A stretch of DNA of 49,586 bases, taken from positions 1-49,586 of the forward strand of contig CACIQI010000011.1 in assembly GCA_902588745.1 (NCBI GenBank), written 5' to 3'. The DNA is from an uncultured Alphaproteobacteria bacterium (lineage in GTDB: Bacteria > Pseudomonadota > Alphaproteobacteria > HIMB59 > GCA-002718135). Both the position numbers and the translations under genes were made by a program. Every line of letters starts with the position of its first letter. The stretch's first letter is position 1. Below are positions 20,377 to 30,240 of this stretch, piece after piece. Under the pieces are notes generated by a model. That model did no database searches. It was not told the origin of the DNA and saw only the letters and a list, made by a program, of their open reading frames with translations.

Positions 20377-21435
20377 TTATAATTTTTTTGCTGCACTAGT
20401 TTCTTTGATATTTGTTAGCTTTGTATATCTATCTATCATTTGCGTTGTCTTATGACCACTTTGAGCCATAATTTCATGAGTAGGTACTCCATTCATTCTA
20501 GCCTGAGTAATTGAACCTATTCTTAAGCTATGACCGGAAATTTTATCACAATTTTCTATACCAGCGTCCTCAGCTCTTTTTTTTAAAATTAAAACAAAAC
20601 TTGTGTCAGTCAAACTTACTTTTTGATTCTTATTATTAAGAATATATTTTTCTATATTATTAGCTTTGTTAATTTTATAAAAGAGAGGTCCTGAATCAAT
20701 TAGTGCTACCTCTAACCAATTCTTTAACGCAGATACGGGACAATAAGGTGAATTATTTTTAGGTAAATAGATCATTCTTCCTTCACCTTTTTGATCAGTC
20801 TTAGAAAAAGGTATTAATACTTGAACACCATCTTCTTCAAAATTTAGATGTTCGTATTTCATGCCTAAAAGCTCAGATCTTCTACAAAAACTATAAAAAC
20901 CAATTAAAATAAGAGCTCTATCTCTTATGTTTCTAAAATCTTTGTTATCATTTGGAATTTTATCAATAATTTTTTCAATATCTGCTTTTAACAACTCTCT
21001 TGCTTGACCAGATTTATTATTTTTTTCATCTCTTACAATTGCACTAATTGTTTCAGAAATATTTGGATTTTTTCTATCAAATTGAAATCCGTTAACTCTA
21101 TATTTATATGTAATAGATGCTAAGATTCTTTGTATAGTGGAAGCTTTATAGGCAGTAGAGGAGTAGGGGTTGTTATTTACATTTTCTCTACCCGGTATGT
21201 TACTCGATCCTTTGAGTATTTTCGCTTCTGGATCTTCATGTAACCAATCCATATAATTAGCTGTTAATGCGTAAGCGCTATCTAGATCATCAACATCTAA
21301 AGGACTGCAATTGTATTTATTTTTGCAATAATCTATAAATTTTAACCAATCTCCTTGATATTTATCTTGAGTATTTTTAGCTTTGGATTTTTCCTTTAGC
21401 TTACTTACGTTTTCATTTAGTGATATTTTAACCAT
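20377..21435 (-). CDS. Tyrosine recombinase / site-specific integrase
   Basis: The 352-residue protein has an N-terminal SAM-like DNA-binding domain (about 10-120) and a catalytic domain with the full active-site set: Arg186 in FCRRSELLGM, Lys212 in PFSKTDQKG, His302 and Arg305 in SGHSLRIGS, His328 in QSGHKTT and the nucleophile Tyr337 in MIDRYTKL. It is somewhat longer than XerC/XerD and looks like an island or phage-type integrase. An inverted-repeat site resembling a Xer/dif core lies immediately upstream of its ATG. It marks one edge of the accessory region that includes the restriction operon. No excisionase gene was recognised. Confidence 0.92.
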   Translation of the reverse strand: MVKISLNENVSKLKEKSKAKNTQDKYQGDWLKFIDYCKNKYNCSPLDVDDLDSAYALTANYMDWLHEDPEAKILKGSSNIPGRENVNNNPYSSTAYKASTIQRILASITYKYRVNGFQFDRKNPNISETISAIVRDEKNNKSGQARELLKADIEKIIDKIPNDNKDFRNIRDRALILIGFYSFCRRSELLGMKYEHLNFEEDGVQVLIPFSKTDQKGEGRMIYLPKNNSPYCPVSALKNWLEVALIDSGPLFYKINKANNIEKYILNNKNQKVSLTDTSFVLILKKRAEDAGIENCDKISGHSLRIGSITQARMNGVPTHEIMAQSGHKTTQMIDRYTKLTNIKETSAAKKL

Positions 21436-21469: not shown

Positions 21470-21596
21470 AATAGTCAAGTAATTAATATTATAACTATAA
21501 ATCAGTAATTTATATATAAAATCTAAATGATATTATAATATCATAAACTAGATATAGATTTTCACGTGTAATAAAATACTGTATATAGTGTATAAA

Positions 21597-22313
21597 ATGG
21601 AAAAATTACCCCAGATTTCAGCTAATTCCCAGATCTTTGTATTAACTGGAGCTGGTATAAGTAAAGAGTCTGGTATTGAAACTTTTAGGGACTCCGATGG
21701 ATTATGGAATAATCATAGGATTGAAGATGTTGCCAGTCCAGAAGGATTTTATAGAAACCCTACTCTTGTCTATGATTTTTATAATAAACGTCGAAAAGAA
21801 CTAAATTCAGGAATTAAGCCAAATAGGGCTCATATTGTTCTTTTTGAGTTAGAAAAAACATATAAAATTCATATAGTTACTCAAAATATCGATAATTTGC
21901 ATGAGATTGGTGGATCATCATCAATAATTCACATGCATGGTGAGTTAAATAAAGCTAGATGTATCATGAATGATAATCATGTATTTGAGTGGCTGGAGGA
22001 CCTAAATGAGACCCATAAATGCCCTGAATGCGGTTCACAAATGAGACCTCACATTGTGTGGTTTGGTGAAATGCCCATGAAAATGGATGAAATTCATGAT
22101 CTAGCAGAACAATCTAGTTTGTTTGTTTCTATTGGCACTTCTGGAGAGGTCTACCCTGCCGCTGGATTCGTTACCATTTTTAAGGATATGAATAAGCCAA
22201 CAGTTGAATTAAATCTTGAACCATCACTTAATCAAGATCAATTTGATTTTGCTATTCACAAACCAGCTACAATTGCAGTTGAAGAATTTAGAAACTTAAT
22301 TTTAAATAATTAA
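21597..22313 (+). CDS. cobB: NAD-dependent protein deacylase, CobB-type sirtuin
   Basis: The 238-residue enzyme (ATG at 21597; a GTG three codons earlier is possible) shows the NAD-binding start LTGAGISKESGIETFRD (16-32), TQNIDNLHE (95-103), the catalytic His114 in IHMHGE and a reduced zinc site (Cys122, Cys142, Cys145). FYNKRRKEL supplies the Tyr62/Arg65 pair (YxxR) that in SIRT5/CobB-class enzymes favours succinyl- and malonyl-lysine. RPHIVWFGEMPMKMDEI and GTSGEVYPAAGF closely resemble Escherichia coli CobB. It should remove acyl groups from lysines in the cytoplasm. It is a housekeeping type rather than a defence-type SIR2 and is divergent from the integrase. Confidence 0.93.
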   Translation: MEKLPQISANSQIFVLTGAGISKESGIETFRDSDGLWNNHRIEDVASPEGFYRNPTLVYDFYNKRRKELNSGIKPNRAHIVLFELEKTYKIHIVTQNIDNLHEIGGSSSIIHMHGELNKARCIMNDNHVFEWLEDLNETHKCPECGSQMRPHIVWFGEMPMKMDEIHDLAEQSSLFVSIGTSGEVYPAAGFVTIFKDMNKPTVELNLEPSLNQDQFDFAIHKPATIAVEEFRNLILNN

Positions 22314-22344
22314 AAAATTTATTTGATGAATAATTGAATTGATA

Positions 22345-22367
22345 AATTTTTAATAATAATAAAAATT
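22345..22367. terminator. AT-only hairpin between convergent genes
   Basis: An 8-bp stem AATTTTTA with TAAAAATT and a 7-base loop lies in the 56-base gap between the cobB stop and the DUF4420-type nuclease stop. It is A+T only and so thermodynamically weak; a terminator role is suggested mainly by position. Confidence 0.35.
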
Positions 22368-22369
22368 AT

Positions 22370-23335
22370 TTAAATAGTGAGGTTTTCAAAAAAAGAATTA
22401 GGTTCAAAATTTTCAATATGTTTTGAATATTCTAAGTTTACACTGTACTCTATATCCTCAACGCCTCTATCATAATTTAAAACTTTAGGTAAATCAGCAA
22501 GGTAATAATATCTAGTATGTTTTATAGAATAATCATAATCATATTTATGAAACATTACCTGATCTTTATTCTGACTACCTATAATCTCGTAAATACCATT
22601 ATATAATTTTGATTTAAGTTTTGGGTTATTAATCTTATCATTAATTTTTTCTTGCAACTCGTAAATATCAAAACCACCATTCTCCTTTTTTTGAATTAAT
22701 ATCGAGGCAACTAAAACATTGTTAACTTTTTCAATTAATTGTGCATGTCTAAATTTATGCATTCTTTGATTTGTAGAAGTTGTTTTTACTTCAATCGATC
22801 CATTAATATTAAAAAAATCATATTTAAATTTATTTTTTTCTCTCCAACTTTCTATTAAAGCTTCTGAATTTTTAGAAGATAATATTAAGAATAATTCTCC
22901 CCATAATCCAATTATATTAGATTTAGATTTATTAAAACTTCTCCATAAATTTAGAAAATCAGTAATTATTTTCTTAAGTTGATTTATTTCTATATTATCA
23001 TCAATAATTTCGATGATTTTTTCTATTGAAGATAGAAAAATTTCAGTAATGTATTCATCACCTTCTAATAATTCAATAGTACAAAAATAATCAGTAAACT
23101 CGTTTTTATCTGATTGAATTAGGCATTTACTAGAATAACTTATTGATACAAATTTACTTAAATTTTCAGAGGGCTCCACATTACTTGATTTTACTTTAAT
23201 TAAAACAATTGGAAGATTTTTTTTTGTTTTACCGATACGGTGATTTTTGTTTTCAAAAATTTTATCAGTATAATATTTGTTATTATTAATATCTGAAATT
23301 TTATTAATTTTATTATATTTATTTATTAATTCCAT
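22370..23335 (-). CDS. PD-(D/E)XK nuclease-like protein (DUF4420 type) of MORC-associated restriction system
   Basis: The 321-residue protein has the restriction-endonuclease fold core at about 140-200: Glu147 in LWGELFLIL, Asp173 in FKYDFFN and the E-x-K pair Glu182/Lys184 in SIEVKTTSTNQRMHKFRHAQL. This layout, with the conserved GLWGEL and KTT stretches, is that of the PD-(D/E)XK family found in operons with Z1-domain proteins. It is expected to be the DNA-cleaving subunit. Its ATG overlaps the end of the Z1 gene by ten bases, so synthesis is coupled; it is the last gene of the operon. Confidence 0.85.
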   Translation of the reverse strand: MELINKYNKINKISDINNNKYYTDKIFENKNHRIGKTKKNLPIVLIKVKSSNVEPSENLSKFVSISYSSKCLIQSDKNEFTDYFCTIELLEGDEYITEIFLSSIEKIIEIIDDNIEINQLKKIITDFLNLWRSFNKSKSNIIGLWGELFLILSSKNSEALIESWREKNKFKYDFFNINGSIEVKTTSTNQRMHKFRHAQLIEKVNNVLVASILIQKKENGGFDIYELQEKINDKINNPKLKSKLYNGIYEIIGSQNKDQVMFHKYDYDYSIKHTRYYYLADLPKVLNYDRGVEDIEYSVNLEYSKHIENFEPNSFFENLTI

Positions 23336-25788
23336 GAAGTTACAGTTCTCAGAGCTGTATCTAAAAAAGTTTTAGGAATATAAAAATTAAAAAAAGCTCT
23401 TTCTTTCCATTCAAATTCTTCATCTGAAGTATTTCTTTTTATGTCTAGTAGGTAGGCTTGAAGTGTAGGTATCTTCTTAGGTTTAGTATCATAAGTTTCG
23501 CCTTTTAAAAATTCATAATGTAAATATCTATCTCCTGGAAAATGTTTTATAGATGTAATTCCATCTTGTTTAAAATGTGTTGATGGTCCTTGCCATATAT
23601 TAACAATTTCTTTTGCCTTATTTCCTGTAAGCGATCTTTTTTTTCGAAATTCTCTATTCATAATAATTATTGGGCAGATTATATCATCTGCATTTTTATT
23701 TTTCTCAATGTAACTTTCTACTAGCATTAAAATATTGTTATAATTTGAGATATCATTTGGATGACTTCTAATTTTTGTTATAATTTTCTCGAATACTTCT
23801 CTTAATCCAATATTTAAAATAATTTTATCTTCACTCTCCCATTCAAAGTTCCTAAAATTATTATTTGGATCGAGTAGTTTTGTTGAAGTTAATTTATCTA
23901 ATGTTAAATAAATTTCTCGATTAATATTTAATACATCAGGATCTTTGATTTTATGTGAATGAGCTTGTTTGGCATAATCTTTATTAAAAGTTTCAACATT
24001 TGCTCTAAAAATATATTGTCTAGTAAGTCTGTATCTTTCATTAAGAAAAAATCTTCTACTCATTTCTTTTGCATTCTTTCCAGTCTTAGAAAATTTTTCA
24101 ATGTCATCAAGTAAATTTTCTTCCATCTTTACATAATCTTTAAAAAAATCTTGATGTTGCTTGGTCATATATATTTGTATTAAATCTTCATATCGTGAGT
24201 GATACCCAAAAAATCTAGCCTGTTGCTGTATAGTATCTGATTGTCTGGTTCCAAGACCTCTACATAAATATGATACTGTTAAACCTTCTATAGTAAAACC
24301 TCTTTCAATCCCAACTCCTCCGACTATAATTCTAGCATATCCATTATTCCAATCAACAGGTTCAATACTATTCATTCGAGAATTCAATTCTATTGGAGGT
24401 TCCATTAATCCTAAAGTTCTAAGAATTTTAAGTTCAGCAAAATCAGGTATATCGTTGTTAGAATATTCTTTTAATTCATCATATGCATCTTTATATTTTT
24501 TTAATTCTTCATCTTTATAAACATCATCTTTTAATGCTTCACTAGAACTATCTAAAACTGCATTTATGAATTTTAAAAATTTTACATGTGAATTTTGAGA
24601 AATATCGGGATGAACCATCATGGATCTGTTCTTTTTTGGGTCGTGATGTTCTTTAAAATGATATCCAATTGATGCTCCAATTATAAATACTCTTATTGCA
24701 CGATCTAAAGATGAAGGTCTTTTGTTATTATGTGTTAAATCGTCTATTTCTTTCTGATCAATCTTTTTAACATGTTTTTTATTTTTATTCTCGTTATCAA
24801 AATAAAATTTACCTCCCCTATAATCAGAGCCTATATTGAGTACCTTTATAAAATTAGCACTCAAAGTATCCATTAAATCTATTAATAATAAACCTTGAGG
24901 TGTTGCTGTATAAGAGAGAAAACTATGATGTTCGCATAATTTTCTTAAATTTTTAATTTCTCTGTTTGTAGCACTAGAAGGAGATTCAGTTATTATTTGA
25001 TCTCCAACTCTAATATCATCTGTAATTTTATTTATTCTCTTAAGTAAATTTTCATCTACATTAAAATCTGCAGCAATTGACTCGATCGTGTCACCCTCTT
25101 TTACTTCATATATATCATTATTCTGTATTGCTAAATTTCTAATTTTATCTTGCTTAAGATTAACTGTATTATTTGGGGAGTGTTGATCGCCTTCATCATC
25201 TATAATTAAAGTAGGTATCTCACTAAAATCAATACCTTCATTCTTTGCATGATTTATTATTTCAGAGATTTTATTAATTCTATAGGTATTTTTCATTGAA
25301 ACAATTATTACAGTTTGTTCATCTCCTTCCTCAAAAGTGCCATTTCTCTCCCAAGTTTCAAATTTTTTGAGCATAGTTTTAGCATCATTATATGTATCTT
25401 GTTTTTCATCTGTTATTCTAATATGACTGTATCCATATATGTCTAACGACTTTTCTAATCTCTCTCTAGTTTGATCAGCTAAATTTTGAGTTATACCAGA
25501 TAGTATTATTATTAATTTGTATCCATTATCTTTAGCCATAGCAGATAAAGCTTCCATAGAAGAAGTTTTACCACTTTGTATTTTGCCTACTACTAAACCT
25601 GTATGATCAAAATTTGTTTTTGTATTAATATTTGGATTACCACAATTTGATAAAATAAATTTTGTTTCATCTCTTATTTTTTCAAAATCTTTTTTTTCTT
25701 GTGACTCAATATAAGCATTAAAAAAACGACCATTTGTTTTAACTGTCCAAATATCTTTCTCAGCTAAAATTTCAGTTGTTTCATTCAT
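23326..25788 (-). CDS. Z1-domain superfamily II ATPase/helicase-like protein with LysM-like insertion
   Basis: The 820-residue protein has Walker A GKIQSGKTSS (68-77), Walker B LIIDDEGDQHSP (194-205), a SYTATPQ motif III-like element (292-298) and the Z1 region with VGGVGIERGFTIEGLTVSYL and an arginine-rich QARFFGYHSRYEDL stretch (about 485-555). This is the Z1 family known from MORC/MutL-type restriction systems, thought to move or remodel DNA. Between Walker B and motif III, residues about 226-268 read as a LysM domain (YEVKEGDTIESIAADFNVD, then RINKI and VGDQII). LysM normally binds cell-wall sugars outside the cell, so its place inside a cytoplasmic ATPase is odd. It is two bases from the upstream GHKL ATPase gene. 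Confidence 0.9.
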   Translation of the reverse strand: MNETTEILAEKDIWTVKTNGRFFNAYIESQEKKDFEKIRDETKFILSNCGNPNINTKTNFDHTGLVVGKIQSGKTSSMEALSAMAKDNGYKLIIILSGITQNLADQTRERLEKSLDIYGYSHIRITDEKQDTYNDAKTMLKKFETWERNGTFEEGDEQTVIIVSMKNTYRINKISEIINHAKNEGIDFSEIPTLIIDDEGDQHSPNNTVNLKQDKIRNLAIQNNDIYEVKEGDTIESIAADFNVDENLLKRINKITDDIRVGDQIITESPSSATNREIKNLRKLCEHHSFLSYTATPQGLLLIDLMDTLSANFIKVLNIGSDYRGGKFYFDNENKNKKHVKKIDQKEIDDLTHNNKRPSSLDRAIRVFIIGASIGYHFKEHHDPKKNRSMMVHPDISQNSHVKFLKFINAVLDSSSEALKDDVYKDEELKKYKDAYDELKEYSNNDIPDFAELKILRTLGLMEPPIELNSRMNSIEPVDWNNGYARIIVGGVGIERGFTIEGLTVSYLCRGLGTRQSDTIQQQARFFGYHSRYEDLIQIYMTKQHQDFFKDYVKMEENLLDDIEKFSKTGKNAKEMSRRFFLNERYRLTRQYIFRANVETFNKDYAKQAHSHKIKDPDVLNINREIYLTLDKLTSTKLLDPNNNFRNFEWESEDKIILNIGLREVFEKIITKIRSHPNDISNYNNILMLVESYIEKNKNADDIICPIIIMNREFRKKRSLTGNKAKEIVNIWQGPSTHFKQDGITSIKHFPGDRYLHYEFLKGETYDTKPKKIPTLQAYLLDIKRNTSDEEFEWKERAFFNFYIPKTFLDTALRTVTSWN

Positions 25789-25790
25789 AA

Positions 25791-27386
25791 TTAGTAAGGT
25801 GCTGGATTAGTTCTTAAAATTTCATTGAGTAAATTTCTTATAGCCGCTGGATTTTCTTCACCTTCAGTTTTTAATACACCTTCAGCAAAACTCATCCATA
25901 TAGCTAGAGATAATATACCTCTAAGTTCCTCTGAGTCTTTTGTAAAGTAGTTTGTAAATTTATGATTCATATTTACAACACATTGAACTTTATACTTGGC
26001 AGTATCAATTTGACTTACTTGAAGCCATTTTGATGTAGGATCTGCATCGTGAGACAATATTACTTCTATTTGCCAAATATTTCCTTTGATTTTAGTTTCA
26101 GTTGAAAATTGTTTTTTTTTGCCTTTTACTTTTATTAATTTATTTGGAGTAGGGTTATTTTTTGGAAAATTATATTTTTCAATAGTTTTAGCTACTTTTT
26201 CTGTATTTGCTAAAACATTTGGAACTACTTCCTCAGATTTAGTATTTTCCTCTCTAATTTGTTTTTTCTTTTTTTCAAATTTTCTAGGCTGGTAATTTTC
26301 TGCCATATCTAACAAAGAATATTTTCCTTTGAAATATGGTTTTTTTAATTCATCTTTTATAATAGAATTTATTGCATCCTCTTCACCATCCCATTTAAAA
26401 CCATCTTTTGTGTGTGTAACATTAAAATTTTCATAATGTAATTCTCCAAATATTCTTAAAAATTTTGTTCCACCTGGCTGGCCAAAAATAATGTGAGGTC
26501 TATATTTCTCATCACCAGAACCTATAATTAGTCTTTTTCTTCTAAACAATGAAAGACCTGAATATATTTGACTTCCCTCTTCTCTTAATCCTATCCATCC
26601 ATGTATTTGCTGATTACTCCCAACATCTAAATTAATTTTTTGTTTCCAATATATTTTAGGTATTTGTATATCTTGTTCTAAATTTTCATACCATGCAGTA
26701 TTTAGAACTTTATCTGGTTTGTATTTTAATAACTCCTCATTAAAATATATATTTAAATCATCTCTTTCCATAAGAACTCTGTAAATAGAAGAAAGATGGC
26801 TTTTTATTTTCTCTATAGTTTTACCTTTGGGAGTTTTATACAATTTTTTTAAAGTTAATGTTGTTCCATGCTCTTTTGCTTTCTTTTGAAATCTTTTAAT
26901 ATTTAATGAAGTTAAGTTATCTATTCTAACTTTTTCAACATCAAATATAATTTTTTTTTCTTCATCCTCGCCTAGGGGCATAGTTTCTACTTCCCACAAA
27001 GGAGAAAAACAGCAGGCAGCATTTTTCATTCCCATACCAAACTCACTTAAACCTGTTGCATCAGAAGGCGCACTTGCAGGTCTAAAAGCTCTTGGAAAAT
27101 CTTTTTGTGTAATCCCTCCTGCATTGTCTTGAATAGTAATTGTATTTCTTGATATATTAATAAATATTTTACACTTTATATTTGGATTAATTTTTTTTAA
27201 TTCAGAATTTATTTTTTTTGAATAAAAACTTTGAATTGAATTATCTATAAATTCAGCAAGTGCAAACCATGGCTTATAATCTAGATTTTTTAAAACGGAG
27301 TAAATTCCTTGTCCCGGAGTTATGTCTACATCTCCGCATGTACATTCGTATGAATTACATTCTAAACATTTATCTATTTTTGACAT
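25791..27386 (-). CDS. MORC/MutL-like GHKL ATPase of restriction-modification system
   Basis: The 531-residue protein has the three GHKL ATPase motifs: ALAEFIDNSIQSF with Glu45 and Asn49, DNAGG (87-91) and ATGLSEFGMGMKNA (110-123). A cysteine cluster at the start (Cys7, 10, 15 and 17) could form a small zinc site. The region after the ATPase (about 200-370) resembles the S5-like transducer, and a basic linker (370-425) leads to a C-terminal domain. Homologues are the bacterial MORC-like proteins encoded with cytosine methyltransferases and Z1 proteins; they are thought to clamp DNA in an ATP-dependent way. It follows the methyltransferase gene by 39 bases. Confidence 0.9.
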   Translation of the reverse strand: MSKIDKCLECNSYECTCGDVDITPGQGIYSVLKNLDYKPWFALAEFIDNSIQSFYSKKINSELKKINPNIKCKIFINISRNTITIQDNAGGITQKDFPRAFRPASAPSDATGLSEFGMGMKNAACCFSPLWEVETMPLGEDEEKKIIFDVEKVRIDNLTSLNIKRFQKKAKEHGTTLTLKKLYKTPKGKTIEKIKSHLSSIYRVLMERDDLNIYFNEELLKYKPDKVLNTAWYENLEQDIQIPKIYWKQKINLDVGSNQQIHGWIGLREEGSQIYSGLSLFRRKRLIIGSGDEKYRPHIIFGQPGGTKFLRIFGELHYENFNVTHTKDGFKWDGEEDAINSIIKDELKKPYFKGKYSLLDMAENYQPRKFEKKKKQIREENTKSEEVVPNVLANTEKVAKTIEKYNFPKNNPTPNKLIKVKGKKKQFSTETKIKGNIWQIEVILSHDADPTSKWLQVSQIDTAKYKVQCVVNMNHKFTNYFTKDSEELRGILSLAIWMSFAEGVLKTEGEENPAAIRNLLNEILRTNPAPY

Positions 27387-27425
27387 ATTTTTTTAATATT
27401 TCATAATTTAATAATAAAATTAAAA

Positions 27426-28847
27426 TTAAAACAATCTCAAATTTTGATATCTAGGTAATATTCTGTAAAGATCTTTATCTAGTTTTTTATTTAAAAAAGT
27501 TTCTGATATTTTTTCTACTACATCAGCATTAACTGCATTTCCAATAGCCTTAAACGCCCTCTCCCATCCCCTGCTTTTCATTGTATTGATTATTCTTTTT
27601 TCTTTGAAACCTTGAATTTTTAAACATTCCTCAATTGATAAATATCTATCTAGCATTGGAATATAGGGTAATTGTGTAACTGCTGCGTGAATTAGAGTTG
27701 GGGCTGCATTCATTCTTTTAACTCTAACACCTGATCCTCTAAAAGAAATGACTTTGTCTTTTAAGGTGTATTTTTCACCAAAACAATTCCACTCAAATTT
27801 TCTATGTGTTGGCTCTTTAAACATTTGAAGTTTATTAAATTTGTATTTTTTTAACCAAGGATCAATCCATTTTTTATTTCTTTTATAAAAATCTCTATTT
27901 CTTTTTATAAATATTTTTTTCCATTCAGGAAATTCATAACTTTCTTCTATACTTTCATTCCTGGATCGACTGTAAGTTGCATAAGGAGGTAGTAACTCGT
28001 CAAATATTTCTTCTTTACTTTTATTTTTTAAACTTACTCCAAGAGTACCTTTATATTTTTGTAATTTTTTTAAACTAAATTTTCTAGGCGCTTCTTCTTC
28101 AAAAGGATATGTCGCACCAAATTCAGCTATCCATAAAGGATTATACAGTGTTTCATTTTTAGGAATTCTTTTTAAAAAATCTTCCCAATATTTTAAAAGT
28201 AATTTTTTCTCTTTAGATAATATTCTTGGTCTATAGGGATTTTTTATAAAATATTTTTTTAAATTAGTAGTTGGTTTTCGATCTTTCATGTTGTTTTGTA
28301 ATTTTGGCCACTTAATCATTGGCTGATCATTTTTTCCATTTTTTTTAATTGCTAATATATACAAACGTAATCTTGTTTGAGGAATGCCAAATTGTATTGG
28401 CGAAATTTGATCTTCTTCAACATAATAACCTTCTTCTTCAAGTTGATTTTTCATAAATCCATATGTTTTGCCTTTATTATGGTTGTATAAATTTGGAACA
28501 TTTTCTAACATTAAATATTTGGGTTTATGTGCTTGAACAAACTTCATAATATAAGAAAACATACTTCCTGCTATTTTATGATCAAAACCACTTTGTGTTC
28601 CAGCTTTAGAAAATGGCTGACAAGGAAATCCAGCGCATAGAAGATCATAATTTAATTTCTTAATTTTTTTGAGATCAGCTTTAATGATATCGTGATCAAC
28701 ATAATTTGTCTTAAAATTTGATCTATAAATTTCATTTAAATGTTTATCAATTTCACATGCGTAAACACATTTATGACCTAAACGTTCAAGACCAATATGA
28801 AAGCCTCCTAAGCCAGCAAATAGATCAATAAACTTTAATTTTGCCAT
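27426..28847 (-). CDS. DNA (cytosine-5) methyltransferase
   Basis: The 473-residue enzyme carries the C5 methyltransferase motifs in order: I FIDLFAGLGGFHIGLERLG (6-24), IV with catalytic Cys76 in AGFPCQPFSKAG, VI ENVPNL (115-120), VIII FGIPQTRLRLYIL (about 152-164), a long variable target-recognition region (about 200-400), IX-like YLSIEECLKIQGF and X AFKAIGNAVNADVV near the C-terminus. It should methylate host sites to protect them from the linked nuclease complex. The target cannot be read from the sequence; the recognition region is longer than in small Dcm enzymes. It lies five bases after the Cas4-like gene. Confidence 0.93.
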   Translation of the reverse strand: MAKLKFIDLFAGLGGFHIGLERLGHKCVYACEIDKHLNEIYRSNFKTNYVDHDIIKADLKKIKKLNYDLLCAGFPCQPFSKAGTQSGFDHKIAGSMFSYIMKFVQAHKPKYLMLENVPNLYNHNKGKTYGFMKNQLEEEGYYVEEDQISPIQFGIPQTRLRLYILAIKKNGKNDQPMIKWPKLQNNMKDRKPTTNLKKYFIKNPYRPRILSKEKKLLLKYWEDFLKRIPKNETLYNPLWIAEFGATYPFEEEAPRKFSLKKLQKYKGTLGVSLKNKSKEEIFDELLPPYATYSRSRNESIEESYEFPEWKKIFIKRNRDFYKRNKKWIDPWLKKYKFNKLQMFKEPTHRKFEWNCFGEKYTLKDKVISFRGSGVRVKRMNAAPTLIHAAVTQLPYIPMLDRYLSIEECLKIQGFKEKRIINTMKSRGWERAFKAIGNAVNADVVEKISETFLNKKLDKDLYRILPRYQNLRLF

Positions 28848-28852
28848 ATTAA

Positions 28853-29617
28853 CTAGACACCAGAGTTACGATATAAACAATGCTTGCAGTTAGGATTTTG
28901 ATCTGGAACCTTATCATTATCTAATGTTTTTTTAATATTTAAAATTGTTTTATCAACCCAAGAATAGTCTCCTTCATAGGATAAAATATCAATTTTAAAT
29001 TTTAACTCTTCATTAAAGTTTTCTATATTTTTATAATATGCACTACAAAAAACAAAATAGGCAGTTGTAGAAACATCAAAGCCATTTTTATTAAACAGCC
29101 ATTGATAAAATTCAACTTGTTTCTTATACCAATATTTATGAGGAGCCCCCTTCTCATCTAATGAGGCATTTAGAGGTTCATTTGTTTTTTTATCATATGA
29201 TACTGTTGTACTTTTATAATCAGCAATAAAAATTTTACCATTATTGTCAGTCCAACAATCATCTATTGCACCGTATAATAAAAAATTAGTATCGGTATCG
29301 TGATACTTTATTCCTTTGCGATTATTTTGCCAATCTTCAATTTCATCATGTTTATAGGGAATTAAATCTATTCCATGTTCTTTACAGTATGGGTGTACAG
29401 TTTGTGTTTTTCTATATTTATCAAATTCATTTTTAAGTAATTTATCCAAAGCTGTTGGAATATATGACATTGGTCCCGATGGACGGGCAATACGGTATTT
29501 TTCTGAACGATCAATATAAAAACAACGTGGACATTGTAAAAATAAATCAACCTTGCTTCGACTAAGCTCAAAAGATTCATTCTGACCGGTAATATAAAGT
29601 GATTTTTTTTTTGCCAT
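28853..29617 (-). CDS. Cas4/RecB-like PD-(D/E)XK nuclease with cysteine cluster
   Basis: This 254-residue protein has the RecB/Cas4 nuclease signature: Asp119 in LLYGAIDDCW, the D-x-K pair Asp133/Lys135 in IFIADYKSTT and the QxxxY motif KKQVEFYQWLF (166-176). Cys29 and Cys32 near the start (FLQCPRCFY) and Cys244 and Cys247 near the end (NCKHCLYR) match the four-cysteine iron-sulphur arrangement of Cas4 and AddB-type nucleases. There are no CRISPR repeats or cas1/cas2 genes in the window, so it most likely serves the restriction system as the first gene of the operon. It may process DNA ends. The start at 29617 faces the divergent 170-residue gene. Confidence 0.85.
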   Translation of the reverse strand: MAKKKSLYITGQNESFELSRSKVDLFLQCPRCFYIDRSEKYRIARPSGPMSYIPTALDKLLKNEFDKYRKTQTVHPYCKEHGIDLIPYKHDEIEDWQNNRKGIKYHDTDTNFLLYGAIDDCWTDNNGKIFIADYKSTTVSYDKKTNEPLNASLDEKGAPHKYWYKKQVEFYQWLFNKNGFDVSTTAYFVFCSAYYKNIENFNEELKFKIDILSYEGDYSWVDKTILNIKKTLDNDKVPDQNPNCKHCLYRNSGV

Positions 29618-29631
29618 TAATTATAATTTCT

Positions 29632-29652
29632 ATACATTTAAAATAAATGTAT
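29632..29652. promoter_or_regulatory. Perfect inverted repeat in divergent promoter region (candidate operator)
   Basis: ATACATTTA, a three-base centre AAA, then TAAATGTAT: a perfect 9-bp palindrome centred between the starts at 29617 and 29696. Its length and position fit an operator for a dimeric regulator controlling the restriction operon or the divergent gene. The low GC of the region makes chance palindromes more common, so the call is tentative. Confidence 0.45.
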
Positions 29653-29695
29653 CAACATACTTATCAGTTATCTCATTCATAAAAGTAGCTAATTT

Positions 29696-30208
29696 ATGAA
29701 TATTGAAAAGTTAATAAATTCTCTGCAAAATAAAGATGATAATCAAATTTCTAGGATATTTAATAATGCAATAGATATTATATCAAATGATAAACCTCAA
29801 AAAGAGGATGCGCTTAAAACAATAAATGCAATTAAGATTGAATGGAAAAGAAGATTAGAATTATTTAAATTGGGAAAATATAAAACTACCTCTCCCAAAC
29901 TAGGCATGCTAGGTTTTCTCGGATATCATGTTGGTCATCAAGGTGAGCCAAAAAAAAGAAGAAGATATTTGATTGACTGGATTATGAGTAATGATTTGCC
30001 GCTAGTACAGTCTCCAACTTATTTATTAGAGTGGGATAAACCCAAAAGTATAAAGAGATATAAAAAATTCCATAGAGTGTTGCAAGGTTTAATAACTTCA
30101 AATGAAAATCGTAAAGATATTGAATATAGAGATTTTGATAAAGCAATTATGGAATGGAAAGACGATTTAGAATATCTTGAAAATAAATGGATGAATAAAT
30201 CTATTTAA
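29696..30208 (+). CDS. 170-residue protein of unknown function, divergent from the restriction operon
   Basis: No family name is recognised. The protein has a helical acidic N-terminus (1-55), then a compact conserved-looking core: GMLGFLGYHVGHQGEPKKRR (about 70-89), YLIDWIMSNDLPLVQSPTYL, EWDKPKSIKRYKKFHRVLQG, and a C-terminal helix ending WKDDLEYLENKW. The strongly basic centre (KKRRR) could bind DNA or RNA. It is 78 bases from the divergent Cas4-like start with a palindrome between, so it could regulate or belong to the restriction system. No clear helix-turn-helix is seen. Possible start codons and weak ribosome site do not help. Confidence 0.65.
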   Translation: MNIEKLINSLQNKDDNQISRIFNNAIDIISNDKPQKEDALKTINAIKIEWKRRLELFKLGKYKTTSPKLGMLGFLGYHVGHQGEPKKRRRYLIDWIMSNDLPLVQSPTYLLEWDKPKSIKRYKKFHRVLQGLITSNENRKDIEYRDFDKAIMEWKDDLEYLENKWMNKSI

Positions 30209-30218
30209 TCTAATTTTA

Positions 30219-30240
30219 TGAGAGGCACGAAGACCTCTCA
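30219..30240. terminator. GC-rich hairpin between convergent genes
   Basis: A 7-bp stem TGAGAGG with CCTCTCA and an 8-base loop sits 11 bases after the 170-residue gene stop and before the convergent stop at 30249. It stands out from the AT-rich surroundings, but no T-run follows directly on the plus strand. Confidence 0.5.

Follow-up and report, generated by a model that had tools for sequence, protein, structure and literature searches.

A predicted MORC-type restriction core and exchangeable cargo behind a Cas4-like nuclease gene in a marine alphaproteobacterium

Genes of the locus

In this study, we analysed a 49,586-nt stretch of DNA (the window; contig CACIQI010000011.1) of an uncultured alphaproteobacterium of the order HIMB59, which carries a Cas4-like nuclease gene followed by a four-gene restriction core. 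The six open reading frames of this segment are laid out as in a preliminary description made from the sequence alone. Five of them, running from 29617 to 22370, likely share one transcript because they are separated by only 5, 39 and 2 bp and then overlap by 10 bp. A Pfam search placed all five operon genes in families, each with a score above the cut-off.

28853..29617, minus strand: Cas4/RecB-type PD-(D/E)XK nuclease, 254 aa (PF12705; CxxC...CxxC)
27426..28847, minus strand: DNA C5-cytosine methyltransferase (MTase), 473 aa (PF00145)
25791..27386, minus strand: MORC-type GHKL ATPase, 531 aa (PF13589; motif stretch GLSLFRRKRLI)
23326..25788, minus strand: helicase gene with LysM insert
24991..25110, minus strand: LysM domain, helicase residues 227-266 (PF01476)
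22370..23335, minus strand: DUF4420 PD-(D/E)XK nuclease, 321 aa (PF14390)
22325..28838, no strand: replaceable cassette holding the four core genes, from homology ends in L002 and L003

The restriction core and its LysM insert

The core had been identified as a MORC-type restriction set, and rightly so. The MORC motif is GhXhhpXXRhl (Iyer, Abhiman and Aravind 2008, PMC2292703), which GLSLFRRKRLI in the ATPase translation fits, in addition to the PF13589 match. The helicase motif stretch DTIQQQARFFG has Q at one h position, and its D518, Q522, R525 and G528 are invariant in alignment A1. The DUF4420 nuclease scored 80.7 bits with PF14390, and the E of WGELF, the D of KYDFF and EVK can be read in its translation. 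Judged by these families and motifs, the core genes are predicted to encode a defence system that cuts DNA, of a type that is known but has received little study, here in a marine bacterium.

In the helicase, the LysM domain is flanked by Walker B (DDEGD) on one side and by the SAT-like motif (YTATP) on the other. It scored 36.1 bits with PF01476 (cut-off 20.9), shows the beta-alpha-alpha-beta order (E226-228, H235-242, H246-252, E264-266) and gave a profile match to LytE. LysM domains bind GlcNAc-type glycans. Such a predicted sugar-binding-type domain inside a DNA motor is unusual and one of the points of interest of the locus.

Compared with the third type of MORC-SFII helicase restriction-modification (RM) operons (PMC2292703), the locus differs in the LysM insert, in that no Vsr was found and in the Cas4-like gene upstream. 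One further system shares the three core genes, with no AIPR, which its paper assigns to its type II only; section 11 of that paper is silent on both LysM and Cas4-like genes. From CglI/NgoAVII it differs in its nuclease (DUF4420 instead of PLD-B3), the added MORC and the LysM insert, and a Pfam scan found no PLD-B3 R-protein domain among the operon products. The reported absence of AIPR, a criterion of MZA (mzaABCDE), was borne out by the lack of a PF10592 match in the genome itself (~80% complete). The scores with the NCBIfam equivalogs of this system also lay far below the cut-offs (MzaC, 98.4 bits against 1500; MzaD, 18.8 bits against 420).

The Cas4-like gene and the exchange behind it

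The first gene product shows the RecB/Cas4 fold with the G-D-DYK-QxxxY motifs and a fold match to recombination nucleases. Cas4 proteins hold one N-terminal and three C-terminal Fe-S cysteines; the four cysteines here, correctly noted before, form CxxC at 29 and 32 and CxxC at 244 and 247, and the score with the Cas4 family TIGR00372 was 18.8 of the 65 bits required.

Exchange of the cargo behind this gene is visible and is a point of interest beside the LysM insert. In two related loci type III RM genes replace the four-gene cassette, homology ending at 22324 and 28839 in L002 and at 22320 and 28859 in L003. The Cas4-like gene heads the type III genes in both and in L094, and is interrupted in L006. 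The preliminary interpretation had joined all five genes into one system and proposed a check of gene order across genomes; its core identification holds, while the joint system is unsupported, the Cas4-like gene lying outside the cassette swapped in L002 and L003. That this gene is integral to a system with the other four is very improbable; none of nine viral records bearing the core had a Cas4-like match either (these are fragments, and the test had no positive control).

Relatives appear to couple a Cas4-like nuclease with several quite different restriction systems (the labels type III, McrBC and DISARM are backed by family evidence), and the nuclease is best read as ancillary, outside the replaceable cassette. 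Cas4-like nucleases of pfam12705 occur in type III RM and Dcm contexts, for which an ancillary role was proposed (Hudaiberdiev et al. 2017, PMC5704561). Our case shares these contexts, but the nuclease is stand-alone, with no UvrD fusion, and the cargo swap behind it is visible. The genome with L094 belongs to another family and consists of a single contig; there the gene leads a type III operon, and a gene for a resolvase (PF00239) lies nearby.

The integrase-sir2 hotspot and relatives elsewhere

The remaining features flank the operon, including the integrase and the divergent accessory gene of the earlier account, both confirmed.

20377..21435, minus strand: tyrosine recombinase, left edge of the hotspot
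21588..22313, plus strand: Sir2-family gene adjoining the integrase
29696..30208, plus strand: 170-aa orphan gene, divergent, no family
30219..30240, plus strand: terminator-like hairpin downstream of the orphan gene (pattern match alone)

The integrase seems to be a resident with changing cargo, because integrase relatives occur in 81 of 162 genomes, sir2 adjoins the integrase in all 20 loci that we chose for comparison, and cargo varies in content and in size, from almost none (L062, L071) to >10 kb (L077). At least five of the 20 (L060, L061, L066, L069, L070) have MTase matches, none with a Cas4-like match.

The nuclease might instead serve the hotspot, as a RecB/RecE-like end-processing enzyme aiding cargo exchange and no defence effector. 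The fold match would suit this, as would breakpoints near both ends of the gene (28839 in L002 and L005 and 28859 in L003; 29648 in L003 and 29624 in L004) and the remnants left behind (34 MTase codons in L004, the 170-aa gene in L002). However, cargo also varies at those five loci, and the gene is found off the integrase-sir2 site, e.g. in L094 and family f2 (an integrase search of f2 found none), so we consider this role unlikely.

Several points weigh against an ancillary nuclease beside a restriction core. Enzyme activity and protection are predicted, and no site-recognition subunit was recognised; where this locus has DUF4420, the R-protein of CglI carries PLD and B3 domains. Of 12 places from outside the order, at least two (L094, L095) had recognisable RM genes next to the Cas4-like gene, a lower bound since neighbours were compared by blastp with our own cargo set and few were scanned with Pfam. 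Family f10 (L097, L102, L103) has constant, non-defence neighbours, with a DNA ligase in L097. The RM-linked rows of relatives do not form one clade; they do cluster (4 changes against a shuffled mean of 6.9; 4 of 500 shuffles equally low). Cas4-like and RM genes may thus share islands without joint function. Such plain co-residence, with which the MTases lacking a Cas4-like match and the RM-poor contexts agree, is rather unlikely, given the same-strand position ahead of different RM genes (gaps of 5, 108, 178, 30, -8 and 5 bp) where a rough count expects ~0.009 such placements per locus.

In L097 (9671-11705), the genes for the Cas4-like relative and an ATP-dependent DNA ligase overlap, perhaps as a repair pair; L102 and L103 show the same neighbour pattern. 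The 170-aa orphan, divergent from the operon across 78 bp, has no family match and eight homologues, one of them (95%; L060, 9620-10129) in a copy of this hotspot where no Cas4-like match was seen. Three terminator-like hairpin patterns were observed in the region against 1.9 expected. Diverged copies keep the integrase and Sir2 pairing (36% and 50% identity in L056; 41% and 48% in L057), and a 151-aa protein without a Pfam family (L058, 15506-15958) recurs adjoining sir2, with matches in 11 of the 20 loci.
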